The translations under genes were made by a program, and so were the position numbers. Shown piece after piece: positions 1-51,490 of a DNA stretch of 64,000 bases. The DNA is from Pelosinus propionicus DSM 13327 (GTDB lineage Bacteria > Bacillota > Negativicutes > DSM-13327), in the NCBI RefSeq assembly GCF_900114615.1, contig NZ_FOTS01000013.1, forward strand, positions 1 through 64,000, written 5' to 3'. How positions within the stretch are numbered: the first letter of the stretch is position 1; every line of letters starts with the position of its first letter. The notes below the pieces were generated by a model. The model had not been told where the DNA came from. It saw only the letters and a program-made list of their open reading frames with translations, and searched no databases.

Positions 1-265
1 AAGACCGATACAAATCCACTTCCCGTTCCAATGCTTTAATGCGCAGCTCCATTTCACGCTGTTTTGTGAATGGTGACGTGCGCGGTCTTCCCCGCTTTTT
101 AGGTATGCAAACTTCCGGTTTCCTGTTATAACGCCGAACCCAATTTTTGATTTGTACCTTTGTGAGCCCCAGTGCATCTGCTATTTCCTGGCGTGTTTTG
201 CCTTGCTCACGCATGGCGATTATCTCTGGTTCCATTATTTTGATGTGCGTATATTCCCTTTTCAT
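1..265 (-). mobile_element. IS3-type transposase OrfA, 3' end cut by the window
   Basis: Reading the minus strand from ATG at 265 gives at least 88 codons, running off the left edge. It begins MKREYTHIKIMEPEI and contains a helix-turn-helix (TRQEIADALGLTKVQIKNWVRRY), then a basic stretch KKRGRPR and the start of a coiled coil (MELRIKALEREVDLYR). This order is typical of OrfA of IS3-family elements, in which OrfA binds DNA and a -1 frameshift joins it to the OrfB integrase. OrfB would lie outside the window. The start has a strong AGGGGG ribosome site. Element boundaries cannot be set from this end alone. Confidence 0.75.
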
Positions 266-270
266 GCAAT

Positions 271-308
271 CGCCCCCTGTCGTAGTTTCTATCCTACAAC
301 AGGGGGCG
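271..308. repeat. inverted repeat at the IS end / translation-start hairpin
   Basis: CGCCCCCTGT near 271 pairs with ACAGGGGGCG ending at 308, with GTAG/CTAC continuing the stem. On the minus strand the stem contains the AGGGGG ribosome site of the transposase, so folding of a read-through transcript would hide it. On the plus strand a T-run follows, as in a terminator. The minus-strand sequence from about 300 begins TGTTGTAGG, compatible with an IS3-type TG terminus. Confidence 0.5.
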
Positions 309-441
309 TTTTCTCTCAATGTCTATTTCTTGGGATGCGGTCTATACCTGCGGAGGCTTTTTCTTATATAGTCTATTGCTATTGCGGCCAATCGTCTTGC
401 AAAAAGGCAAAATGATGTGAGATGAACATGCTGAAAGACTT

Positions 442-1846: not shown

Positions 1847-1886
1847 GATACCTCCCAGCTATAAAACTGGGAGGCATCTTTTTATA
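1847..1886. terminator. bidirectional Rho-independent terminator in the regulator leader
   Basis: GATACCTCCCAGC pairs with the reverse half ACTGGGAGGCATC around an ATAAA-type loop. It is followed by CTTTTTAT on the plus strand, and by TCTTTTG on the minus strand. It lies between the cobalamin riboswitch and the sigma-54 regulator, so it could be the riboswitch expression platform or the end of a short riboswitch RNA. Confidence 0.7.
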
Positions 1887-1907
1887 AAGTAACATGCATA
1901 ACAATAT

Positions 1908-1936
1908 AAATCCCGGCGCAAAAAACGCCGAGATAA
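1908..1936 (-). promoter_or_regulatory. GC-rich hairpin between riboswitch and terminator
   Basis: ATCCCGGCGC and GCGCCGAGAT-type arms flank an A-run on the plus strand; in the minus-strand transcript this is CGGCG-TTTTTT-GCGCCG with extended flanks. It is a stable stem without a following U-run, of the kind that could take part in an alternative riboswitch fold. Confidence 0.4.
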
Positions 1937-2000
1937 AAGTACAGTTTGGCACATGTGTACTTAATCCCCTCCCCATCGCTCGTGGGTCAAATGGTGACTG

Positions 2001-2161
2001 TCAAATAGGCAGTTCTCCTGGCTTTGGTTCATTGCTTACTCAAACCTTCCCAAGAACTTAGTCTCAGTGGTATTTCATTGAGGTTGCTCCCCATTACAGT
2101 GGCGGGACCGCGTCGGTATCACACCGATCTTCCCTATTAAGCCCTTGCGGGCACCTATTTC
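2001..2161 (-). promoter_or_regulatory. cobalamin riboswitch
   Basis: The minus strand carries the conserved adenosylcobalamin aptamer core: a GGGAAGATCGGTG segment, GCGGTCCCGCCACTGTAA, a later GGGAAGG, and the B12 box GCCAGGAGAACTGCC. P1 is closed by AAATAGG (near 2160) with CCTATTT (near 2003). Order and spacing match the class. It is transcribed towards the sigma-54 regulator at 442-1755, about 245 bases downstream, with a terminator between. Such riboswitches usually turn expression off when B12 is plentiful. The nearest B12 users are oraS/oraE, which are on the other strand. Confidence 0.9.
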
Positions 2162-2462: not shown

Positions 2463-2588
2463 ATTACAAGAAGGTAAGGAGGGCAATAGACGGCCAGTTT
2501 GGCAAACTATTAAATATAGACAATGCAAGGCTTACTATATTGGTGTTGCTAGAATATTGCAATCTATAAAGAGGTGGAGGTAGGTACT

Positions 2589-3668
2589 ATGGGATATCCT
2601 TTCATTGAAATTGATCTTGAGAAAATTACTGCTAATGCTCATTTGCTCGTTAATATGTGTAATGCTCATAATATACAGATTGTTGGTGTGGCTAAGGCTG
2701 TATGTGCTGATATTGATGTAGCTAAAGCGATGTTAGCTGGTGGAGTGCCGATGCTAGGAGATTCACGAGTCCAAAATCTTCGAAGACTTCGAATGGCTGG
2801 CATTGATGTTCCATTACTACTGCTAAGGATTCCAATGCCGAGTGAAGTGGATGAAGTAGTGCAAATTGCTAACTGTAGTTTAGTTTCTGAGCTTTCAACA
2901 ATTCGTCAGCTAAGTCAGGCTGCTATCAAGGTTGGAGTGATTCATGACGTAATCCTAATGGTGGACATGGGAGATTTAAGAGAAGGAATTATGCCGCAAA
3001 AGATTTTGCCTTTAGTTCAGCAGATTCTTTTGTTATCAGGAGTACGTTTGCAAGGACTTGGCGCAAATTTTGCTTGTTATTCAGGAAAAATTCCTACATC
3101 GGGGATTCTTAAGAGACTTGTTGCGTTAACTCAGCAAGTTCGAGATGTATTTGCTTTGGCATTACCCATTATTTCTGGTGGTAATTCTGCTGCCATTGAC
3201 TTGCTAATGACTAGTGGCATACCAGCAGGAATTACTCAATTGCGAATTGGCGAAGGTATTTTGCTTGGACGAGAGACCCTAAAACGGAATCCTATTCCGG
3301 GGGCTTACCAGAATCCCTTAATTCTGCATACTGAGATTGTCGAGGTACAGGAGAAACCTTCCGTGCCGTCAGGAGAAATAGCCCAAGATGCTTTTGGGAA
3401 TATACCGGTTTTTATTGACCGAGGTATCCGCAAACGAGCGATTGCAGCCATAGGCCGACAAGATGTGGAAATCGATCATTTAACGCCAATAGTACCAGGA
3501 ATTGATATTCTAGGCGGCAGCAGTGATCATTTGATTCTTGATGTCAGTGATGCTGCAGAAGATATTGCTGTTGGTAGTGAAGTTTGTTTTTATTTGCAGT
3601 ATGGAGCTTTAGCTCATGCTATGGTTTCGCCCTATGTATCTCGTGTTTATAAAACGCGAAATTTTTGA
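2589..3668 (+). CDS. orr: ornithine racemase (PLP, alanine racemase fold)
   Basis: About 359 residues. It converts L-ornithine to D-ornithine, the substrate of the aminomutase encoded downstream. The N-terminal barrel starts FIEIDLEKITANA and the PLP lysine is K36 in VGVAKAVCAD; the C-terminal part has the beta domain of fold-III racemases. Length fits the Orr/YhfX-like family. An upstream in-frame GTG at 2574 lies inside the GAGGTGGAGG ribosome site, so ATG 2589, seven or eight bases after that site, is the better start. It has its own sigma-54 promoter and is separated from ord by 374 bases. Cytoplasmic. Alanine racemase is the main alternative, made less likely by its neighbours. Confidence 0.85.
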   Translation: MGYPFIEIDLEKITANAHLLVNMCNAHNIQIVGVAKAVCADIDVAKAMLAGGVPMLGDSRVQNLRRLRMAGIDVPLLLLRIPMPSEVDEVVQIANCSLVSELSTIRQLSQAAIKVGVIHDVILMVDMGDLREGIMPQKILPLVQQILLLSGVRLQGLGANFACYSGKIPTSGILKRLVALTQQVRDVFALALPIISGGNSAAIDLLMTSGIPAGITQLRIGEGILLGRETLKRNPIPGAYQNPLILHTEIVEVQEKPSVPSGEIAQDAFGNIPVFIDRGIRKRAIAAIGRQDVEIDHLTPIVPGIDILGGSSDHLILDVSDAAEDIAVGSEVCFYLQYGALAHAMVSPYVSRVYKTRNF

Positions 3669-3829
3669 GATGCATGCTGCTGGAAGAGTTGAAGAATTTG
3701 CAAAAAAATTTCTCTGTTTTACTGTGGGCAAAACTGGTACGCTAAAATGCCGCAAATAAATTTGCTTATGCATATAGCAAGGTATTTGCCTATAATTTAT
3801 CGAATATGGGAATTTATATTTATAGAAGG

Positions 3830-3850
3830 TGCAAATTTTTTTGCAGCAAT
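3830..3850 (+). promoter_or_regulatory. candidate activator dyad upstream of ord
   Basis: TGCAAA-TTTT-TTTGCA is a perfect dyad that overlaps ATTTTTTTGCAGCAAT, nearly identical to the site at 2376-2391. It lies about 120-130 bases upstream of the ord -24 element, where sigma-54 activator sites are commonly found. A related inverted TTTGCAAAAAAATTT is at about 3697-3715. The stretch between orr and ord (3669-4042) holds no gene I can support. Confidence 0.4.
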
Positions 3851-3965
3851 GATTAAACAAGATGTTTTTATTCATGAGATTTATACATCCTAAGATCAAT
3901 AAAAATATCTGATTATTGAGAAAATAGGTGTGGCAAGAGCACTTATTTATAGTATTAGTTTAAAT

Positions 3966-3981
3966 TGGCATGATTGTTGCA
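3966..3981 (+). promoter_or_regulatory. sigma-54 promoter of the ord operon
   Basis: TGGCATG-N4-TTGCA is an essentially perfect -24/-12 element. The predicted start is near 3992, about 50 bases before ord. It should serve ord and probably the genes that follow. Confidence 0.8.
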
Positions 3982-4042: not shown

Positions 4043-5086
4043 ATGGAAACAGTAAAAGTAATTTTATGGGGATTAGGTGCGATGGGAAGTGGCATGGCAA
4101 AAGATATTGTAGAGAATAAGAAAGGAATTGAAATTGTAGGTGCCATTGGACAAAATCCGCAGAAAATTGGAAAAGATTTAGGAGAGGTTTTAGGACTTAA
4201 TAAAAAATTAGGAATAACTATATCAAAAAATCCTGCAGAAATATTACATAGTACGAAGGCGGATGTGGTATTGCATTCTACCCAGTCCTTTACAAAAGAT
4301 GTATTTCCTGAGATTAAGCTGATTGTAGAATCTGGTAAAAACGTTATTACGATTGCCGAAGAGATGTCAGCTCCGCAAGTGGAAACTCCTGACTTGGCAA
4401 ACGAGATGGACGCACTTGCCAAAAAGCATAATGTGACTATTTTGGGTACTGGCGTGAATCCAGGATTTGTACTAGATACATTGATTTTAACGTTAACAGG
4501 TGCCTGCCAGGTTATCAGTAAAATTTGGGCAGCTAGAATAAATGACCTCTCGCCATTTGGACCGACAGTAATGAAGACGCAAGGGGTTGGAACCACGGTG
4601 GAAGAGTTTCATAAAGGTGTAGAGAATGGCACCATTGTAGGACATATTGGTTTTCAGCAGTCCATTTATTTAATCGCAAAATCTCTTGGCTGGGAGCTGG
4701 ATAAAGTAGTAGAAAGCCGTGAACCTATTATTACTAAGGTTTATCGTGAAACACCTCATGTTCAGGTCCAGCCTGGCATGGTTGCTGGTTGCCGCCATGT
4801 TGCACGCGGCTTTTATAATGATCAAGAAATTATTACGCTAGAGCATCCACAACAAATTCATCCGGAGTTAGAAGGGATAAAAACCGGGGACTATATTACA
4901 ATCGAAGGTACACCGACAATCAAATTTGCTGATGAACAGGAAATCCCTGGTGGAATTGGCACAATGGCTACCGCTGTGAATATGATTCCACAAGTAATTA
5001 ATGCTAAGACGGGCTTGTTAACTATGCCGGAATTGCCTGTAATTACCGCTTTAATGGGTGATGTACGTAAATTGGTGAAAAGGTAG
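4043..5086 (+). CDS. ord: 2,4-diaminopentanoate dehydrogenase
   Basis: 347 residues. It oxidatively deaminates (2R,4S)-2,4-diaminopentanoate, the aminomutase product, to 2-amino-4-oxopentanoate with NAD(P)+. The N-terminal Rossmann motif is GLGAMGSGMAKDI, and the rest resembles dihydrodipicolinate reductase-like dehydrogenases (GTGVNPGFVLDTL, GVGTTVEEFHKGVENG). Length matches characterised Ord proteins. ATG follows GAAGGAGG. It is the first gene after the best sigma-54 promoter in the window, and the rest of the pathway follows on the same strand. A 213-residue open frame on the opposite strand is a shadow of it. Confidence 0.92.
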   Translation: METVKVILWGLGAMGSGMAKDIVENKKGIEIVGAIGQNPQKIGKDLGEVLGLNKKLGITISKNPAEILHSTKADVVLHSTQSFTKDVFPEIKLIVESGKNVITIAEEMSAPQVETPDLANEMDALAKKHNVTILGTGVNPGFVLDTLILTLTGACQVISKIWAARINDLSPFGPTVMKTQGVGTTVEEFHKGVENGTIVGHIGFQQSIYLIAKSLGWELDKVVESREPIITKVYRETPHVQVQPGMVAGCRHVARGFYNDQEIITLEHPQQIHPELEGIKTGDYITIEGTPTIKFADEQEIPGGIGTMATAVNMIPQVINAKTGLLTMPELPVITALMGDVRKLVKR

Positions 5087-5284: not shown

Positions 5285-6721
5285 ATGAATGAAAATTTTA
5301 ATGGGAAAATTGAGCAGGCTATAGCGCAGCAATCAGGTTTGGATCGGGGGATGAAAAGTCGACACTTATTTATGATTACGCTAGGGGGCGTTATTGGAAC
5401 CGGATTATTTTTAGCTTCTGGATCCACCATAAATCAAGCTGGACCCATTGGTAGTGTAATAGCCTATATAATAGGTGGATTCATCATGTATATGGTTATG
5501 ATGTGTTTGGGAGAACTCTCTGTGGCAATGCCTGTATCCGGTGCATTTCAAACTTATGCGAGCATGTTTATTTCGCCTTCCATTGGCTACTTATTAGGCT
5601 GGCTATTTTGGTTAAACGGGGCAACAACAATTGGAATTGATCTCGTGGCAGCAGGCATGCTGCTAAATAATTTGACAGGAGTTTCAGAATGGATTTGGGT
5701 ACTCATATTTGGTGGTGTATTATTTGCTTTGAATTCTTTGCGGGTAGGTGTTTTTGGTGAATCAGAATTTTGGTTTGCTGGTATAAAGGTAGCAGCTATC
5801 GTTGCTTGCATTATAGTAGGTGGCTTGTCAATGATGGGTTATCTTGGGGGGCATGAACCAATTGGCTTTAATAATTATTTTACAGATGGAATGTTTCCTA
5901 ATGGCGTAGGTGCAATTTTAATAGCTATGCTTACGGTTGCGTTTGCTTTTAATGGAACAGAAATTATTGGGATTGCTGCTGGCGAAAGCCAAAATCCAGA
6001 AGAAACGATTCCCAAAGCAGTAAATGCTACTGCATTTAGAACTTTATTATTTTATGTTTTATCGATGATTGTTGTTGCAGCTATCGTTCCATGGAGAGAA
6101 GCTGGAGTAAAAGAAAGCATTTTTGCTGAAGTTTTTCAATATGCAGGCATTCCTGGTGCATACACGATTATGACATTAGTGGTTATTACCTCGGCACTTT
6201 CTTGTGGGAATTCATGGGCCTATAGTGCCACTCGTATTTTGTGGGCAATGTCTAAGGATGGTATGGCGCCGTCTGCTTTAAGTAAATTAAACAGTCATCA
6301 GGTCCCTATGAATGCATTGATTTTGACCATGGCTGTTTCGGGTATATCCTTGTTATGCAGTGTAATTGCCGCAGATACAGTATACCTTTGGTTGATTTCG
6401 ATTTGCGGGTTAGCAGGTGTGCTAGGATGGATGGGGATTTGTGCTTCCCAATATTGCTTCCGCAAGCAGCTTGTTGATAATGGAGGAAATGCAGAGAGCT
6501 TGAAGTATAAAGTTCCTTTGTTCCCTCTAGTTCCAGCTTTAGGTTTTTTCCTCAATGCCCTTATTGTAATCGGATTATGGTTTGATGATAATCAGCGTAT
6601 AGCCATTTATGCTAGTGTACCGTTTATTGTCGTTGTTATGATCTATTATTACAAGGTTGTTTCACCGCGTAGGAGAGTGATTCAGATGGAAAAAATGGAA
6701 CGTACAGATAAACATGCATAA
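5285..6721 (+). CDS. APC-family amino acid permease, probably for ornithine
   Basis: 478 residues with about 12 hydrophobic helices. The N-terminus (MKSRHLFMITLGGVIGTGLFLASG) is the hallmark of the amino acid transporter (AAT/LysP-AroP-like) branch of the APC superfamily, proton symporters of the cytoplasmic membrane. Further family motifs are AFAFNGTEIIGIAAGESQNPEETIPKA, in the central substrate region, and a charged C-terminal tail. It lies between ord and ortA in the same orientation, with a 32-base gap to ortA, so ornithine (or another cationic amino acid) is the inferred substrate. The specificity cannot be read from the sequence. Start has GGGGGAC upstream. Confidence 0.85.
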   Translation: MNENFNGKIEQAIAQQSGLDRGMKSRHLFMITLGGVIGTGLFLASGSTINQAGPIGSVIAYIIGGFIMYMVMMCLGELSVAMPVSGAFQTYASMFISPSIGYLLGWLFWLNGATTIGIDLVAAGMLLNNLTGVSEWIWVLIFGGVLFALNSLRVGVFGESEFWFAGIKVAAIVACIIVGGLSMMGYLGGHEPIGFNNYFTDGMFPNGVGAILIAMLTVAFAFNGTEIIGIAAGESQNPEETIPKAVNATAFRTLLFYVLSMIVVAAIVPWREAGVKESIFAEVFQYAGIPGAYTIMTLVVITSALSCGNSWAYSATRILWAMSKDGMAPSALSKLNSHQVPMNALILTMAVSGISLLCSVIAADTVYLWLISICGLAGVLGWMGICASQYCFRKQLVDNGGNAESLKYKVPLFPLVPALGFFLNALIVIGLWFDDNQRIAIYASVPFIVVVMIYYYKVVSPRRRVIQMEKMERTDKHA

Positions 6722-6753: not shown

Positions 6754-7065
6754 ATGTCGCAAGCACAGAAAGGTGATTGGGTGCAGATCTATCAAATCAT
6801 TTTACCGGCTGGAAAACGTGCACCACAAGTTCCAGCAGAAACTGCGAGTGTTCCTTTGGAGATGTGGGTGAAAGGCTTTTTAGAGGAAGAGCAAGCGCAA
6901 GTGGGTACGGATGTAACTATTTGTTCACTGGCTGGTCGCTTATTACGGGGACGGTTAATCGCTAAAAATCCTCATTATGAGGTTAACTATGGTTTTCCTC
7001 AACCTGAATTGTTGACAATTGGTGCTGAATTAAAGGCGATTTTGGAGGGGAATATAGATGAGTAA
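6754..7065 (+). CDS. ortA: 2-amino-4-oxopentanoate thiolase, alpha subunit
   Basis: 103 residues. Small subunit of the OrtAB thiolase that cleaves 2-amino-4-oxopentanoate with CoA to acetyl-CoA and alanine, the last step of ornithine oxidation. It begins MSQAQKGDWVQIYQIILPAGKRAPQVP and has the compact beta-rich pattern of OrtA proteins. It overlaps ortB by 8 bases, consistent with translational coupling of two subunits. Recognition rests on the WVQI...L..G.RAP pattern, the length and the context. Ribosome site AAAGGTGGAG. Confidence 0.88.
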   Translation: MSQAQKGDWVQIYQIILPAGKRAPQVPAETASVPLEMWVKGFLEEEQAQVGTDVTICSLAGRLLRGRLIAKNPHYEVNYGFPQPELLTIGAELKAILEGNIDE

Positions 7066-8473
7066 TACTAGCTATCAAGCGGTAATCGCTCGGAAGCCGG
7101 AAATAATCAGAAAAGCAACGAATATTGATTATGCTGCCTTTGAAAGTGGTGGGATTGGTTTTGATTATGAGCGCATGATGAGCCAGGTGGCTTATAGCTT
7201 AGACAAAATTCATCAAATTCAGAAGGAAACCGGAGTTGGTAATACGCCATTACTAGAACTGAAGAATATTACTGCTTTGGCTAGACAGCTAGCTGGCCCA
7301 GGAAAGGGTGCTAGGATTTTTATCAAAGATGAAGCTTGCAATCCATCCGGCAGCTTTAAAGCACGGCGGGCTTCAGTATCTGTTTATCATGCTAAGCAGC
7401 ATGGATACAAAGGCGTTGTTGCGGCAACTAGTGGGAATTTTGGTGCGGCAATTGCTTCCCAAGCTGCAATGCGCGGTTTAAAAAGTATTATTGTTCAAGA
7501 AGTTTATGACAGCCGTGGCATTGGTCAGCCAGAAATACTGGAGAAAACGCGAGCCTGTGAAGCATATGGTGCTGAGGTCATTCAACTAACTGTTGGTCCG
7601 GAACTTTTCTATCAATTTCTTCTTGTTCTGGAACAAACAGGATATTTCAACGCCTCGCTATATACTCCATTTAGTATTTGTGGAATTGAAACATTAGGAA
7701 CAGAAATAGCAGAGCAAGTGTTAGCGGCGACAGGCCGCAAGCCAGATGCTGTTGTTGTAACTCATGCTGGCGGCGGGAATGTAACTGGTACAGCACGAGG
7801 CTTGCAGCGGGCTGGATGTGATAATACCCAAATTATTGCCGCTAGCGTTGATTTGAAAGGTCTTCATATGGCCAGTGATATTGATTTTAACCGAAAATCT
7901 TTTACTACAGGACATACTGGCTTTGGTATGCCGTTTGCGACTTCTCCTGATCGTGCGGATGTACCGCGGAATGCAGCACGGCCATTGCGCTATATGGATC
8001 GCTATGTAACGATCACGCAAGGAGAAGTCTTTTATGTAACTGAAATGTTAGCTGTGTTAGAAGGTTTGGAGCGTGGACCAGCTGGTAATACATCACTGAC
8101 CGCTGCTTTTGCGCTGGCTCAGCACATGGGACGTGATGAGGTTATTGTTGTACAAGAAACAGAATATACGGGCGCAGGGAAGCATCCATCTCCACAGCTT
8201 ACCTTCGCGAAAAAGAATGGAATTGAAGTGCGTCGTGGTAATCCGCTGGAGAATGTACCAGGAAAAGCAATCATTATTCCGGAGTGTCCTGGGCAAATCA
8301 ATATCAAAGACATAAAATTGGACAGCGTACGTCAATCGTATCTTCGTAATGCACTTGGAAGTATCGATATTAGAGTATTGCGTCCACAGGATATTGAATT
8401 TCTGGCAGCTGAAACTAGGCTCGAAGCAGCGAGCGTTGAGAGAAAAGTTAGTGAGATACAAGCCGGTCGGTGA
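7058..8473 (+). CDS. ortB: 2-amino-4-oxopentanoate thiolase, beta subunit (PLP)
   Basis: 471 residues, a fold-II PLP enzyme related to threonine synthase. The cofactor lysine is K101 in NPSGSFKARRA, and the phosphate-binding loop is seen in HAGGGNVTG. The subunit binds PLP and catalyses the thiolytic alpha-beta cleavage to alanine and acetyl-CoA together with OrtA. The start ATG lies inside ortA after GGAGGGG. It is followed 69 bases later by oraS. Length agrees with OrtB; threonine synthase is rejected because of the paired OrtA and the aminomutase genes. Confidence 0.92.
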   Translation: MSNTSYQAVIARKPEIIRKATNIDYAAFESGGIGFDYERMMSQVAYSLDKIHQIQKETGVGNTPLLELKNITALARQLAGPGKGARIFIKDEACNPSGSFKARRASVSVYHAKQHGYKGVVAATSGNFGAAIASQAAMRGLKSIIVQEVYDSRGIGQPEILEKTRACEAYGAEVIQLTVGPELFYQFLLVLEQTGYFNASLYTPFSICGIETLGTEIAEQVLAATGRKPDAVVVTHAGGGNVTGTARGLQRAGCDNTQIIAASVDLKGLHMASDIDFNRKSFTTGHTGFGMPFATSPDRADVPRNAARPLRYMDRYVTITQGEVFYVTEMLAVLEGLERGPAGNTSLTAAFALAQHMGRDEVIVVQETEYTGAGKHPSPQLTFAKKNGIEVRRGNPLENVPGKAIIIPECPGQINIKDIKLDSVRQSYLRNALGSIDIRVLRPQDIEFLAAETRLEAASVERKVSEIQAGR

Positions 8474-8509
8474 AGTTAGAAAATCAATTCGTTAGTCACA
8501 ATTTTGCTC

Positions 8510-8542
8510 AGGGGGGTGAACCCAGATATTTCTGGGATTTAT
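8510..8542 (+). promoter_or_regulatory. ribosome site separated from the oraS start by a hairpin
   Basis: A strong AGGGGGG at 8510-8516 is 26 bases upstream of the oraS ATG at 8543, too far for normal initiation. Between them CCCAGA-TATT-TCTGGG (8521-8536) can fold. Folded, the spacing becomes about 10 bases. No better ribosome site is seen closer to the ATG. Confidence 0.45.
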
Positions 8543-8923
8543 ATGCACAGAGATGATGATTATTTACAGCGAAGAGCTCATTTGGCACCTTTGACAGAGG
8601 AAGAATTAAAGGAACGATTTTGGGGATTGGCCAAACAACTAGTTGAGCCGTTGGTTGAACTGGCACATACTCATACTTCGCCGTCAGTGGAGCGTTCGGT
8701 ATTGTTACGCATGGGATTTTCTAGTATAGAAGCCAAAGAAATTGTCCAGCATTGTGAGGAACAAGGACTTTTGGGCAAGGGGGCGGGACATGCAGTATGG
8801 CGGTTAGCTGCATTAGATCAAATAGACTACCGTGAAGCTGGCTTGCAGTTAGGTAAAGGTCAAGGTTGGGAGAAATTAGTGAAGTTTTGGGCAAAGGGGG
8901 AGCAAAATGATATTGAAGCATGA
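8543..8923 (+). CDS. oraS: D-ornithine 4,5-aminomutase, small subunit
   Basis: About 126 residues. Partner of OraE in the AdoCbl- and PLP-dependent 1,2-amino shift of D-ornithine to 2,4-diaminopentanoate. The segment QRRAHLAPLTEEELKERFW, followed by VERSVLLRMGFSSIEA and GLLGKGAGH, is characteristic of OraS. The frame extends upstream to TTG 8504, but the family starts at about M..DD...RRAHL, which corresponds to ATG 8543. GTG 8516 is a possible alternative overlapping the ribosome site. It overlaps oraE by 17 bases, indicating coupling. Confidence 0.9.
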   Translation: MHRDDDYLQRRAHLAPLTEEELKERFWGLAKQLVEPLVELAHTHTSPSVERSVLLRMGFSSIEAKEIVQHCEEQGLLGKGAGHAVWRLAALDQIDYREAGLQLGKGQGWEKLVKFWAKGEQNDIEA

Positions 8924-11108
8924 AGATAAGATTTCGTTGGAAGCAATATTAACCGATTTACAGATATATCGTCCCAAGCGTAAAGGTTGGTCATGGCGCA
9001 AACCTCATGTAACTGGGAAAATCGGACCTTTTACCTATAAGCAGGCAGCGGAATCTCTCCAAGCTTCGGGAGGATTACCTGCATCCAAATATTTCAATAA
9101 TATTGATCCTCAACCTGATTGTGTTATCACTACTGAAATAGCCTCAGGAAGATTTGAGGATGATATCCGCCGTATGCGTATGGCAGCTTGGCACGGTGCA
9201 GATCATCTTATGGTTATTCGTACTGCAGGACAAAGCCATTTTGATGGCTTAATTGAAGGTACTCCTGAAGGTGTGGGTGGTGTGCCGATTACGCGCAAAC
9301 AGCTTCGCGCTACCCGAAAAGCATTAGACTATATTGAAGAAGAAGTCGGTCGTCCGATTAATTTCCACTCATATGTAAGTGGTGTAGCAGGACCAGAAGT
9401 TGCCGTTCTGTTTTCCGAAGAAGGTGTGAATGGAGCGCACCAAGACCCGCAATATAATGTATTGTACCGCAATATCAATATGTACCGCTCCTTTGTTGAT
9501 GCTGCTGTTGCCAAGAAAATGATGGCAACAAGTGGGATGGCTCAAATTGATGGCGCGCACAATGCGAATGCTACTGCACGTGAAGCGTGGAAAGTAATGC
9601 CGGAATTAATGGTGCAGCATGCTATCAATTGTCAATATTCTGTAATGGTAGGGATGCCCAAGGATAAGATTTGCTTGTCTACCGTGCCGCCAACTGCACC
9701 GCCAGCTCCGTGTATTAGCTTGGATTTACCCTACTCTGTAGCATTGCGCCAATTATTTAAAGGTTATAGATTTCGTGCACAAATGAATACTAAGTATATG
9801 GAATCCTGCACACGGGAAGTTACAACTACACATGTGCTGAATACATTGCTGTCAAGATTAACTAGTGCCGATATTCAAAGTACAATTACACCAGATGAGG
9901 GGCGTAATGTTCCTTGGCATTATAATAATATCCATGGAGTAAATACTGCGAAACAAGCACTGCTTGGTCTAGATGGTATTATGGATTATGTTACTCTAAA
10001 CTTTGACGGACCTCTGGGTGAAAAAGTTCGAGAATTAAAAGAACGGGCTTGTTTATTCATGGAAGAAATTATGGCATCCGGCGGTTATTTTACAGCAGTA
10101 AGCAAAGGATTCTTCGTGGATTCAGGTTTTTATCCAGAACGAAGTGGCGATGGTATCGCAAGGCAAATGAATGGCGGCGTTGGAGCAGGCACCATAGTTC
10201 CCCGAGATAAAGACTATATGGCGCCAGTCTGTGATCACTTTGGTTATAATACGCTGCCAGCAGATTGTAATGTTACCGAACTATGTGATTTGATTGACGG
10301 TTGTACCTTATGTCATCCGGAAAAAATTCAGTGGATTGATGAACTGGATCCAGAGGATAATGTATATAAGCGGTTGGTCCAGAATGAGCCAGAACGTAAA
10401 GAAGGATTATTACGCCCAGAAGTACAGTGGCATGGGGACGGCATCGTTTGTATGACCATGTTCTTGCCTGCGGCGGAACGTGTGGCAGAATTTGCTGCAA
10501 AGGATATTGCCCAACGATTAGGCTTAGAGGATGTTGAAGTTATTCATAAACAAGCCATGCATCCCTCTGAGGGAGCATTAATTGAAATAAAAGGTAAGGT
10601 ACCATTTGGTATCGATCCGACTCAATTAGTGATTCCGCCATTGGTTGAACCTCTAAGTGAAGAGGATATAAGAAATTATGTTAGTGAGAATAAGTTGAAA
10701 ATCGTGGCAGCCACAGTAGGGGAAGATGAACATTCTGTAGGTCTGAAGGAAATACTTGATATTAAGCATGGTGGGATTGAGAAGTTTGGAATTGAATGTA
10801 ATTATTTAGGGACATCCGTATCGGTAGAAAAATTGGCAGATGCGGCGGTGGAAATTGGCGCAGATGCTATTTTGGCGAGTGCAATTATTTCCCATTCGGA
10901 TATTCATCGCATCAACATGCGACGACTACATCAATATTGCCAGGAAAAAGGCATTCGCCAAGATCTGATTATTGTTTGTGGTGGAACCCAAATTACAAAT
11001 GAAATTGCCAAAGAAGAAGGTATGGATGCTGGTTTTGGCCGTGGTACAAAAGGCGTTCATGTAGCTAGCTTTTTAGTCGATCAACATCGGGCAAACAAGA
11101 AAGGGTGA
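8907..11108 (+). CDS. oraE: D-ornithine 4,5-aminomutase, large B12/PLP subunit
   Basis: 733 residues. The catalytic subunit has a TIM barrel in the N-terminal two thirds and a Rossmann B12-binding domain in the C-terminal part. The cobalamin motif D607-x-H609-x-x-G612 (DEHSVG) supplies the axial histidine. K620 lies 11 residues after that His, the same spacing as the His618/Lys629 pair I recall for the Clostridium sticklandii enzyme, where the lysine holds PLP in the resting state. The start (MILKHEDKISLEAIL) is inside oraS, after GGGGGAG. Its stop overlaps the region before the MutL-like gene, so oraS, oraE and that gene form a tight unit. Confidence 0.95.
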   Translation: MILKHEDKISLEAILTDLQIYRPKRKGWSWRKPHVTGKIGPFTYKQAAESLQASGGLPASKYFNNIDPQPDCVITTEIASGRFEDDIRRMRMAAWHGADHLMVIRTAGQSHFDGLIEGTPEGVGGVPITRKQLRATRKALDYIEEEVGRPINFHSYVSGVAGPEVAVLFSEEGVNGAHQDPQYNVLYRNINMYRSFVDAAVAKKMMATSGMAQIDGAHNANATAREAWKVMPELMVQHAINCQYSVMVGMPKDKICLSTVPPTAPPAPCISLDLPYSVALRQLFKGYRFRAQMNTKYMESCTREVTTTHVLNTLLSRLTSADIQSTITPDEGRNVPWHYNNIHGVNTAKQALLGLDGIMDYVTLNFDGPLGEKVRELKERACLFMEEIMASGGYFTAVSKGFFVDSGFYPERSGDGIARQMNGGVGAGTIVPRDKDYMAPVCDHFGYNTLPADCNVTELCDLIDGCTLCHPEKIQWIDELDPEDNVYKRLVQNEPERKEGLLRPEVQWHGDGIVCMTMFLPAAERVAEFAAKDIAQRLGLEDVEVIHKQAMHPSEGALIEIKGKVPFGIDPTQLVIPPLVEPLSEEDIRNYVSENKLKIVAATVGEDEHSVGLKEILDIKHGGIEKFGIECNYLGTSVSVEKLADAAVEIGADAILASAIISHSDIHRINMRRLHQYCQEKGIRQDLIIVCGGTQITNEIAKEEGMDAGFGRGTKGVHVASFLVDQHRANKKG

Positions 11109-11113
11109 ATTGG

Positions 11114-12469
11114 ATGAAAACTGTTGATATGTTGATTGCCGAAATAGGCAGCACAACAACTGTTGTAAATGCCTTTCATAGTATTGATACAGATGCGCCG
11201 ATTTTTGTTGGGCAGGGTCAGGCAGCTACGACTGCATTGACGGGTGATGTTACGATTGGGTTATATCAGGCAATTGCTTGTTTGGAAAAAAGGCTTGGGA
11301 TGGAGCTTGCTTGGCAGGAGATGGTGGCCTCCAGTAGTGCTGCCGGTGGGCTTAGAATGACGGTGCATGGTCTAGTTTATGATATGACAGTGAAAGCGGC
11401 GCAGGAAGCGGCTCTGGGAGCTGGTGCAAACATTTATTGGGTTACAGCTGGCGTACTGAGTGATGCTGATTTCGACAACATTGAACGTACTAAACCGAAT
11501 ATTATCCTATTGGCTGGTGGAGTCGATTATGGTGAAAAAGCGACAGTCATTGCGAATGCCAGGCGTTTGAGTCATCTGACTTGTCCAATACCGATTATCT
11601 ATGCTGGTAATAGGGCAGTTAGCGATGAAGTGCGGCAGATATTGGCTACAGGCGGTATATCAGTGACGATAGTCGAGAATGTTTATCCTCGGATTGATCA
11701 GTTGAATATTGAACCAACCCGACGGGAAATTCACGATGTGTTTGAAAAACACATCGTCGAAGCACCCGGTATGCAAAAAATTAGGCAATTGGTGAATGGG
11801 AGCATCATTCCAACACCAGGAGCTGTGATGAAGGCTGCTCAATTGCTGCGCGAAAGTATCGGGGATTTAATGGTCTTAGATGTGGGTGGAGCAACGACTG
11901 ATGTTCATTCTGTAGCAGAAGGGAATCCGGAAATCACAGCCATGCAGGTTGGTCCGGAGCCATTTGCCAAACGCACGGTAGAAGGCGATCTGGGAGTCTA
12001 CGTAAATGCTGATAATGTACTGGCACTTTCTGACGTTAATAAGCTTTGTAAAGAGCTAGATTGCACATCTCAAGAATTGACTGCTTTACGTACACCATTG
12101 CCGGCTACTGATAAAGAAAAAAGATTTGCAGTCTATTTGACGGATATGGCTGTACAGACAGCCGTAAATCGGCATGTTGGTAATATTGAGCATATTTATG
12201 GTCCAACCGGAAGGTTAACAATTGCTAGAGGTAAAGATTTAACTGGAATCAAATGGATCATTGGCACGGGTGGGGCATTGACTCGTTTGCCGGTAGGGCT
12301 GGATATTTTGTTAAATCTTAACGCATCGCCTAGTAGTAATTTGCTGCTGCCACGGCAGGGGCAAGCTCTCCTTGACCGAGATTATATTATGGCATCCGCT
12401 GGAATGTTAGCTCAGAAATATCCTCAGGCTGCTTTAGGAATATTGCGGAAAAGCTTATTTGATAATTAA
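11114..12469 (+). CDS. MutL/GlmL-like protein, presumed aminomutase reactivase
   Basis: About 451 residues of the MutL/GlmL family (ASKHA ATPase fold). The N-terminal phosphate motif is AEIGSTTTVVNAF, and the second is LMVLDVGGATTDVHS; WIIGTGGALTRL is the adenosine motif. Homologues sit beside glutamate mutase and ornithine aminomutase, and are thought to exchange damaged cobalamin in the mutase. ATG 11114 follows GAAAGGG and lies 5 bases after the oraE stop. An in-frame GTG at 11105 overlapping that stop is an alternative. The direct chaperone role is inferred from family and position. Confidence 0.85.
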   Translation: MKTVDMLIAEIGSTTTVVNAFHSIDTDAPIFVGQGQAATTALTGDVTIGLYQAIACLEKRLGMELAWQEMVASSSAAGGLRMTVHGLVYDMTVKAAQEAALGAGANIYWVTAGVLSDADFDNIERTKPNIILLAGGVDYGEKATVIANARRLSHLTCPIPIIYAGNRAVSDEVRQILATGGISVTIVENVYPRIDQLNIEPTRREIHDVFEKHIVEAPGMQKIRQLVNGSIIPTPGAVMKAAQLLRESIGDLMVLDVGGATTDVHSVAEGNPEITAMQVGPEPFAKRTVEGDLGVYVNADNVLALSDVNKLCKELDCTSQELTALRTPLPATDKEKRFAVYLTDMAVQTAVNRHVGNIEHIYGPTGRLTIARGKDLTGIKWIIGTGGALTRLPVGLDILLNLNASPSSNLLLPRQGQALLDRDYIMASAGMLAQKYPQAALGILRKSLFDN

Positions 12470-12488
12470 AACAAATTGATATGTAAAT

Positions 12489-12555
12489 AAAGTCCGTTCT
12501 CTTTTGTTACAATAATTTTGCAATTTATATAACAAAAAAAGAATGGACTTTTTAC
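12489..12555. terminator. bidirectional terminator of the ornithine operon
   Basis: AAAGTCCGTTCT...TTTTGTTA pairs with TAACAAAA...AGAATGGACTTT around an AT-rich loop, with T-runs on both sides. It separates the plus-strand operon from the convergent regulator. Confidence 0.8.
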
Positions 12556-12638
12556 ATTAAATATTATTGCTGCGGCCAGCTTTTTGCTAGTAAAGAACAA
12601 AAATATTAATGCAGAGCATCAACAGATAAGAAAAGTAT

Positions 12639-14114
12639 TTATTTTAGGTTATATTTTTTTAGTTTGTATTGTAAAAGCTGGCGAGTAAGTCCTAGGGACT
12701 TTGCCGCCCATGTAATATTGCCGTTTGACTTCTTGAACGCGGCGCATATTAGTTCTTTTTCGATGGTGTCCCGATGTTCTATTAACGTTGTGGGTTCGGT
12801 ACAATTTATATTGGCTGCCTGTGAGGATTTTGATGTCGTTAGTAGACTAGACAAGAATAATGCCGGTAGGTGGTGCATTTCTATTTCGCTTTCTGTCAAT
12901 ATAAGGTTCATAGCTCCTTCAATTGCATGCTGAAGTTCTCGTATATTGCCTGACCATGAATGTTGATAAAAAGCATCTAATACTGTAGCTGAGACTTTCT
13001 TTACATCCAATCCCATAATCGGATTATACTTTTCAATAAAATGATTAATGTAAATTGGAATGTCTTCCTTGTGTTCGCGCAGAGGAGGGATGTGAAGGGC
13101 TACAGTACCAAGACGATAATATAGATCTTCCCGTAATTGTTTTTGGGCTATTGCATCAAAGGGGTTCACATTTATTGCGGAAATAACTCGAATATCAACA
13201 GCTATTTCATTTGTTGCTCCCACTCTGCGAATAGAGTGTTCTTGGAGTACTCGCAATAATTTTGCCTGTAGATTAATGTTCATGGAGTTAATTTCATCGA
13301 GAAATAAAGTTCCACCTTGAGCTTGTTCAAAAAAGCCTGGTCGGTCAAGGGCACCGGTGAACCCTCCTTTAGCAGTTCCGAAAAGTAATCCTTCCAGCAG
13401 ATGCTCCGGGAGAGCCGCGCAGTTTATTGCAACAAATGGACTGTGTCTGCGGAGGCTGGCATTATGAATGCTTTGTGCAAAGAGTTCTTTTCCTGTTCCT
13501 GTTTCACCATACAATAATATATTTGATGAGGATCGCGCTGCGCGATTTGCTTGTAACTTCACTGTTCTTAATGTATCAGAGTTTCCAATGATGTCAGAAA
13601 AGGTATAGCGGGTGCTAAAAGGGTGTGTTATATTCAGCGCATTCTTCTGGACAGATAGATTTTGCTGTAAGTCAATGAGCTTTTCGGCGAGCATCTGAAT
13701 AAAGGTAATATCTTTGGCGATTTCAAGAGCTCCAAACAATTCATTGTTAAAATATATCGGAGTAGTACTATTTACTGTGATAACTCTTTTATTTTGAGCA
13801 GTAATATACGTTTGCCGCCGGTCATTTAAAGGGCGTCCCAATTTTAATGCGGTAATGAGTGTACTGTTCTCTGCTTGCAGATAAGGCATTGTGCTTAACA
13901 ATTTTTTGCCGAGTATATTGTTGACGTCCTCGCCTTCTAATTTTGCCATCATCGTATTATATACAATTGTTGTCTCATGCTTATCAATTACCTGAATACC
14001 TACATCCAAACTATTTAAAATTGTTTCATATAATAATAATTTTTGTTCAACTTTTGTCAGCTGTTCTCTTAGTTTATGTTCCTGATTCATTACTATTTCG
14101 TTGAGCTTAGTCAT
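12639..14114 (-). CDS. RocR-like sigma-54 activator of the ornithine genes
   Basis: 491 residues. Domains: coiled coil (1-30), PAS sensor (about 30-165), AAA+ (about 175-410) and Fis-type helix-turn-helix at the end. Walker A GETGTGKELFA, Walker B GTLFLDEIN, sigma-54 loop GGFTGA (one change from GAFTGA) and REDLYYRL arginines are all intact. In B. subtilis, RocR of this type activates arginine/ornithine catabolism from sigma-54 promoters in response to ornithine, and three -24/-12 elements lie nearby, so I infer that role. ATG 14114 follows GGGGGAG; upstream in-frame starts to 14195 have no ribosome site. It is about 60-70% identical by eye to the damaged copy at 442-1755. Confidence 0.88.
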   Translation of the reverse strand: MTKLNEIVMNQEHKLREQLTKVEQKLLLYETILNSLDVGIQVIDKHETTIVYNTMMAKLEGEDVNNILGKKLLSTMPYLQAENSTLITALKLGRPLNDRRQTYITAQNKRVITVNSTTPIYFNNELFGALEIAKDITFIQMLAEKLIDLQQNLSVQKNALNITHPFSTRYTFSDIIGNSDTLRTVKLQANRAARSSSNILLYGETGTGKELFAQSIHNASLRRHSPFVAINCAALPEHLLEGLLFGTAKGGFTGALDRPGFFEQAQGGTLFLDEINSMNINLQAKLLRVLQEHSIRRVGATNEIAVDIRVISAINVNPFDAIAQKQLREDLYYRLGTVALHIPPLREHKEDIPIYINHFIEKYNPIMGLDVKKVSATVLDAFYQHSWSGNIRELQHAIEGAMNLILTESEIEMHHLPALFLSSLLTTSKSSQAANINCTEPTTLIEHRDTIEKELICAAFKKSNGNITWAAKSLGLTRQLLQYKLKKYNLK

Positions 14115-14300
14115 AGTTTTCTCCCCCATACAAGAGATAATATTTTCAATATTCTGCATTTTGTAAAAAATTCCTATCTCTACAGGCATTGGCAATAAAA
14201 TTTATATTTTGTATATTTCTTTATGTTACAATAATATAAAAAATCAGGTGAAGTTTGAATTCAACTTGATTTTATAGTGTGATAGGTGATTAAATAATAG

Positions 14301-51220: not shown

Positions 51221-51234
51221 ATTACTATATATTT

Positions 51235-51490
51235 GATAAGCTATGATAGGAAGGAGTATGTTATTACCTCCGTATAGAGAGGAGATCCGTGGCTGAAAGA
51301 TCTCTCGGGAGTGGGATAGCGGAAGGTAGTCCTGGAGCTATTGCATTGAACTGATAGTAGGTGCAGTCGGTAAGCCCCGTTACGGCATTAAAGTTTGAGT
51401 GACTGCTGGAAGTAGAGTCATTTCAAAGAAACAAGGTGGTACCACGAAAGTATGCTCTTTCGTCCTTTTGGGATGGAAGAGTTTTTTATT
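51235..51490 (+). promoter_or_regulatory. T-box leader of valS
   Basis: The leader carries the conserved T-box AAGGTGGTACCACG at 51433-51446, preceded by a long stem I region (AGGAAGGAGTATG onward, with GAGATCC...) and followed by a terminator, CTCTTTCGTCC-TTTT-GGGATGGAAGAG plus T6 (51455-51487). Uncharged tRNA-Val should pair with the specifier and T-box and favour antitermination. A GTA in GATAGTAGGTGCAG near 51356 could be the valine specifier, but I could not fold the stem to prove it. Confidence 0.9.

Follow-up and report, generated by a model that had tools for sequence, protein, structure and literature searches.

Control of B12-dependent catabolism by cobalamin riboswitches has been described in several bacteria, and in each case the sign of the switch has had to be accommodated. 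In Enterococcus and Listeria, an AdoCbl riboswitch forms part of the small RNA EutX/Rli55, which sequesters EutV (PMC5821096), while in Listeria an antisense cobalamin riboswitch is found at pocR (reviewed in PMC9943018). For a pathway whose enzymes need the ligand as a cofactor, an OFF riboswitch has the wrong sign, and these two known fixes act through RNA, one as a sponge and the other as an antisense transcript. Ornithine fermentation has been placed under a different kind of control, in the OrdR regulons of Clostridiales, in which ord-ortBA-oraSEF-orr-nhaC is under sigma-54 and OrdR (PMC6615313). In the open-access literature, our searches found no paper that links cobalamin riboswitches with ornithine fermentation or with sigma-54 regulators.

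The locus considered here lies in the first 64 kb of a 127.6-kb contig (hereafter the window, 64,000 nt) from the 5.41-Mb genome of Pelosinus propionicus DSM 13327. An earlier note, made from the letters of the window, had described a well-formed, leftward cobalamin aptamer, and this was borne out by the covariance model, which places a class I cobalamin riboswitch aptamer (RF00174) at 2173-1991 on the (-) strand, matching the model at full length (1-189); the score is 108.1 bits, where the gathering score is 31.5, and E is 4e-26 in a search of the window. By its sequence the element is a plain member of RF00174, one of 21 cobalamin aptamers in the genome, and would be expected to respond to adenosylcobalamin. 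Its transcript probably starts near 2199, downstream of a sigma-70 type promoter (2206-2235, (-); TTGACA-18-TATGAT, with TG ahead of the second hexamer) that matches the consensus at 11 of 12 positions and aligns in two further copies of the leader, one in Pelosinus fermentans JBW45 and one on contig C97 of the P. propionicus genome. As the earlier note also held, no B12 synthesis or transport gene stands behind the riboswitch at this locus, and the next gene on its strand encodes a sigma-54 regulator, which we call R1 (442-1755, (-), with a ribosome-binding site GGAGG at 1763-1767). A T-box leader was detected elsewhere in the window (51234-51470, (+), 120.6 bits).

Downstream of the aptamer, the leader contains the parts of a conventional expression platform. 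A P13-type stem that could serve as anti-antiterminator (1963-1999, (-)) pairs AGUCACC (1999-1993) with GGGGAUU (1969-1963), both segments being identical across the window, JBW45 and C97 copies, and its loop GACC could pair with GGUC of L5 to form a kissing loop. The predicted antiterminator (1930-1969, (-)) joins GGGGAUUAAGUAC (1969-1957) to GUACUUUUAUCUC (1942-1930), and in the predicted folds of all three copies it excludes both P13 and the intrinsic terminator T1 (1910-1934, (-); AUCUCGGCG-UUUUUU-GCGCCGGGAU, followed by a U-rich tail), which is kept in JBW45 and C97. In RNA ending at the 5' arm of T1, the antiterminator is the best fold in all three copies; once T1 is complete, the best fold comprises T1 and the P13-type stem, and the antiterminator loses about 3 kcal/mol when the 3' strand of P1 is blocked. 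For three copies, folding alone, which does not measure termination, thus gave terminator and antiterminator structures that exclude each other. The order of P13, antiterminator and T1 is the usual OFF-switch layout, and by these models OFF control of R1 is well supported.

A second terminator-like hairpin, T2 (about 1843-1885, (-); AAAAGAUGCCUCCCAG/CUGGGAGGUAUCUUUU), has arms that reach further (1822-1846 with 1880-1904), and homologous hairpins are present in C97 and JBW45. The earlier note had placed a terminator 120-150 bases downstream of the aptamer; T2 does exist, but the nearer T1, the likelier of the two to be regulated, had been missed. Folding gave no convincing antiterminator for T2, which looks strong, and readthrough into R1 could therefore be low, although the leader of the TonB receptor gene at C97 has the same two-terminator arrangement. 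Some readthrough past T2 into R1 presumably takes place. Two other readings of this region were rejected: a mobile repeat at T2, whose exact core pattern occurs once in the genome, and a small ORF kept in the leader, the window's ATG after GGAGGGG being missing from the C97 copy. A sigma-54-like site in the T2 arm (1822-1838, (+)), which points back into the riboswitch and is missing from JBW45, probably arose by chance.

The origin of the module can be read from its relatives. From the promoter to the end of T2, the window is 81% identical over about 400 nt to the leader at C97:19513-19901 in the same genome, which directly precedes a TonB-dependent receptor gene; on this alignment, the riboswitch module is a paralog of a TonB-dependent receptor leader. 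The homology stops at T2, and no receptor remnant was seen ahead of R1. In JBW45 the same leader stands ahead of an orthologous R1, adjoining the same ornithine operon in the same gene order, with no transporter gene downstream of the module. Between window and JBW45, identity is 0.88 over the 5' UTR and aptamer, 0.96 from P13 to T1, 0.87 from T1 to T2, and 0.68 in the spacer between T2 and the gene, while the two R1 genes differ at synonymous sites by 0.325 per site (about 68% identity). Because P13-T1 is 96% identical at such a level of synonymous difference, the switch appears to be held by selection. The position of the module directly before a TonB receptor gene in one setting and before orthologous R1 genes in the others, with the parts of the switch kept, supports the suggestion in the earlier note that B12 controls the regulator in cis.

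What that suggestion had missed is the condition of the regulator. R1 (ORF, domain search and alignments) is an OrdR-type sigma-54 regulator that has lost most of its PAS domain and retains its HTH, and in both Pelosinus species it faces a second OrdR-like sigma-54 regulator, R2, across the ornithine operon. By sequence comparison R1 is a duplicate of the intact R2 (12639-14195, (-); PAS, sigma-54 AAA+ and HTH by domain search and motif alignment). The last 18 HTH residues are unchanged between R1 and R2, and the Walker A and Walker B motifs of R1 are present. Pfam PAS, which matches R2, finds no match in R1 of either the window or JBW45, the deletions being in frame and of different extent in the two species. 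Four further changes mark window R1: N182S replaces the switch Asn, G205D the second Gly of GAFTGA and R285T the second arginine finger, and the sensor-I Asn has become Thr. JBW45 R1 keeps the switch Asn and carries Asp for the second Gly of GAFTGA, Cys for the arginine finger and Asp for the sensor-I Asn. Thus, all four residues expected of a functional sigma-54 activator (bEBP) are altered in window R1 and three of the four in JBW45 R1, and neither copy has the sensory domain of such a protein.

These changes stand out against the 22 other sigma-54 activators of the P. propionicus genome. The positions of N182, G205 and R285 are invariant in all other compared activators, and of 38 invariant columns, three are broken in window R1, two in JBW45 R1, none in R2 of either species, and 0-1 in each other activator; R1 changes are modestly enriched in these columns (Fisher p 0.018 and 0.042). 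By our reading of the alignments, R285 is the counterpart of PspF R168/NtrC1 R299, a residue in trans contact with the gamma-phosphate of ATP (PMC7175178). On its own, G205D would not necessarily inactivate R1 and may even activate it, since the same change in NorR (G266D) yields a constitutively active protein (PMC2941729). Inactivity is therefore argued from the lost arginine finger, from sensor I and, for the window copy, from the switch Asn. These residues suggest that R1 has lost activator function and is unlikely to be an activator. The gene has nonetheless been retained. Its frame is open in both species, with no stops where about 9 per branch would be expected under neutrality, and dN/dS is 0.218 (bootstrap 0.15-0.30), compared with 0.153 for the R2 pair; by these substitution patterns R1 is under purifying selection and is not a pseudogene, albeit window R1 evolves somewhat faster than R2, a pattern that early decay would also give. 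Just downstream of R1, at the contig edge (window 2-319), lies a transposase-like ORF with an N-terminal HTH, and the contig probably breaks at an insertion sequence.

The ornithine genes lie on the strand opposite to the riboswitch and R1. They comprise orr, encoding ornithine racemase (2574-3668, (+); NCBIfam Orr, just under the curated cut-off); ord, encoding 2,4-diaminopentanoate dehydrogenase (4043-5086, (+), family search); an amino acid permease gene (5285-6721, (+), domain search); ortA and ortB for 2-amino-4-oxopentanoate thiolase (6754-8473, (+), family search); a small-subunit gene that is probably oraS (8504-8923, (+)), assigned by position only, as the family search gave no match; oraE, encoding a subunit of the B12-dependent D-ornithine 4,5-aminomutase (8907-11108, (+), domain and family search); and a gene for a MutL-like, probably mutase-associated protein (11105-12469, (+), domain search). 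The placement of oraS/oraE on the opposite strand under sigma-54 promoters, as in the earlier note, agrees with sites recognized by sequence and kept in JBW45, one ahead of orr (2447-2463, (+), TTGGCATCATTATTGCA) and one ahead of ord (3965-3981, (+), TTGGCATGATTGTTGCA). Candidate activator-binding palindromes of the GCAAAT type occur within 3752-3845 (+), namely GCAAATAAATTTGC (3752-3765) and TGCAAATTTTTTTGCA (3830-3845); both are identical ahead of ord in JBW45, and ahead of orr candidate palindromes are seen in JBW45 only. In JBW45 an EamA/DMT-like permease gene, named by eye (L053 11664-12554), lies between orr and ord and is missing from the window. With an intact PAS-AAA-HTH architecture beside ornithine genes that have sigma-54 promoters, R2 is presumed from its sequence to be the OrdR-type activator of the operon.

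The degeneracy of R1 bears on the sign of the circuit. An OFF switch placed over a plain activator would yield ornithine enzymes in the absence of the B12 that they need, the wrong sign for such a pathway; were R1 an inactive competitor instead, the sign would be correct. It is thus tempting to propose the following circuit. Without B12, the antiterminator would form, transcription would read through, and R1 would be made as a pseudo-ATPase that keeps the AAA+ scaffold and the DNA-binding helix, with the sensor mostly gone and the residues for ATP hydrolysis lost. Perhaps R1 would then occupy the enhancer sites, or perhaps it would join and poison R2 rings, in which case we assume that mixed R1/R2 rings can form; with R2 blocked, the operon would stay off even in the presence of ornithine. 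Once B12 is available, the aptamer and P13 would form, T1 (and T2) would stop transcription, and R2 could act in the absence of R1. We give about an even chance to the reading that an OFF riboswitch controls R1 in cis and that R1 is a pseudo-activator keeping R2 off without B12; the B12 response, passage through T2, the inactivity of R1 as an activator and its interference with R2 are the steps that we infer. The broader statement, that B12-dependent fermentation is gated by a B12 riboswitch by way of a dedicated protein decoy, in which a duplicated sigma-54 activator has turned pseudo-ATPase and a riboswitch related to a receptor-gene leader has taken over the function of its sensor, we hold more tentatively, at somewhat less than an even chance.

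Other explanations deserve weight alongside this one. The module might be a leftover, a copied riboswitch before a duplicate regulator in decay, neither of them serving any function now, and its derivation from a transporter-type leader, the loss of domains and catalytic residues from R1, and the transposase fragment adjoining R1 at the start of the contig would all fit such a history. We nevertheless think it unlikely: P13-T1 is 96% identical between species as against about 68% at synonymous sites, which speaks against a leftover, and R1, whose frame both species have kept open, has a dN/dS of 0.22. The earlier note had named as a refutation relatives showing that a B12 transporter gene once stood directly downstream; in JBW45 the order is the same, the switch is conserved and no transporter gene follows. 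Alternatively, R1 could be a sensorless, constitutive activator made when B12 is short, driving promoters other than, or besides, those of the ornithine operon. The PAS deletion together with the change of the second Gly to Asp, as in constitutive NorR G266D (PMC2941729), speaks for this, as does a B12 riboswitch ahead of an intact sigma-54 activator elsewhere in the genome (L149, below). However, the second arginine finger is lost in both species (to T and C) and the sensor-I Asn with it, window R1 also lacks the switch Asn, and no conserved sigma-54 promoters were found at the locus other than those of a B12-dependent pathway, which gives the wrong sign; we regard this reading as rather improbable.

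A trans-acting small RNA like EutX/Rli55, with R1 not the target, was the second possibility raised in the earlier note, and it would accord with two terminators, of which T2 looks strong, ending the transcript ahead of R1. It found no support and seems very unlikely, given that the regulator R2 is a DNA-binding HTH protein with neither an ANTAR nor another RNA-binding domain, that the same RNA stands ahead of a TonB receptor gene elsewhere, so that its sequence is not special to ornithine, and that the opposite strand holds no gene of note along the transcript's path from the riboswitch through R1. Antisense action was rejected on the same ground, R1 being on the same strand. An ON-type switch, in which B12 permits expression of an R1 that supports the pathway, would have the right sign for a plain activator, but the platform is common to a TonB receptor leader, its P13/antiterminator/T1 order is that of an OFF switch, and R1 is unlikely to be an activator. 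TonB receptor genes are normally repressed by B12. We accord this last reading the least credence of all.

Returning to the decoy circuit, its parts are rare. An nhmmer profile derived from the genome's own 21 aptamers was run over 80 oraE loci of named genomes (1.55 Mb) and, the window aside, found a riboswitch in JBW45 alone; the profile had been proven on Negativicutes only, so that a divergent Clostridia aptamer could have escaped it. Rfam found no riboswitch at six of the other oraE loci. Across 50-51 ornithine-locus records with an OrdR-like match (window included), two complete regulators occur only in the two Pelosinus loci, one further locus having a single split match, and the arginine finger is lost only in the same two, the finger being unreadable by the motif pattern in a few. 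Within the class, oraE occurs in 6 of 380 genomes. Four of these lie outside Pelosinus, none with a riboswitch near oraE; three carry a single regulator whose GAFTGA-type motif is intact (the finger being readable in two), and the short contig of the fourth showed no regulator. Among the ornithine loci checked, then, the riboswitch and the degenerate R1 copy occur together, and the arrangement is found in two species only. The OrdR-like regulator of Deltaproteobacterium Smac51 (L074 3715-5226), apparently the sole one there, has GGFTDA and an intact arginine finger, a further sign that the second Gly-to-Asp change does not inactivate by itself in every case.

Cobalamin riboswitches also occur in other settings in these genomes. 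At L149 (5778-8190; C73:91777-94189), two in tandem lie ahead of an intact PAS-sigma-54 regulator whose neighbours, named by eye, are acyl-CoA dehydrogenase, Etf and 4-hydroxybutyryl-CoA dehydratase-like genes, a 4-hydroxybutyrate-type cluster that looks B12-independent; a 99% identical ortholog in genome G004 also has an upstream aptamer, and more distant orthologs have none. At this site too, a sigma-54 regulator is apparently under the control of B12 riboswitches, with the ordinary sign. At L150 (C73:114899-115083), a cobalamin riboswitch lies upstream of the gene for the small subunit of methylmalonyl-CoA mutase (11549-13810), a B12-dependent enzyme, and the counterpart in genome G008 has two in tandem. 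Three more (L017-L019, C70:12566-13631) fall within about 1.1 kb.

If the decoy circuit is true, duplication of the pathway's activator would have supplied a protein decoy, a third fix for the sign of an OFF riboswitch. It would also provide an example of a catalytically dead enhancer-binding protein kept by selection and join cofactor supply to the control of ornithine fermentation, in a circuit small enough to rebuild in a laboratory host. The riboswitch itself is plain RF00174, and the circuit, if confirmed, would be a new variant. Its parts resemble known systems to different degrees. With the leaders of TonB/BtuB-type receptor genes, it shares the class I aptamer, P13, the antiterminator and two terminators; at the Pelosinus locus, however, the switch controls a regulator adjoining a B12-using pathway rather than a transport gene. 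With the OrdR regulons of Clostridiales (PMC6615313), it shares sigma-54 promoters and an assigned sigma-54 activator, R2 being of such a type, whereas the word 'riboswitch' is absent from that paper and neither a riboswitch nor a second complete copy was found in the other loci checked. As at Listeria pocR, the sign of a B12 riboswitch would be inverted, so that B12 favours a regulator of a pathway that depends on it (PMC9943018), although there the RNA is antisense to the regulator gene and in Pelosinus the switch is sense to a duplicate regulator. The precedent of the eut loci, to which the earlier note had pointed, holds for the logic, namely that B12-dependent catabolism proceeds only with B12, through control of something that counters the pathway activator (PMC5821096). 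It does not extend to the mechanism: in EutX/Rli55 the RNA itself binds an ANTAR protein, whereas R1 and R2 carry sigma-54 AAA+ and HTH domains and no ANTAR, and the agent proposed for Pelosinus is a protein paralog of a DNA-binding sigma-54 activator.
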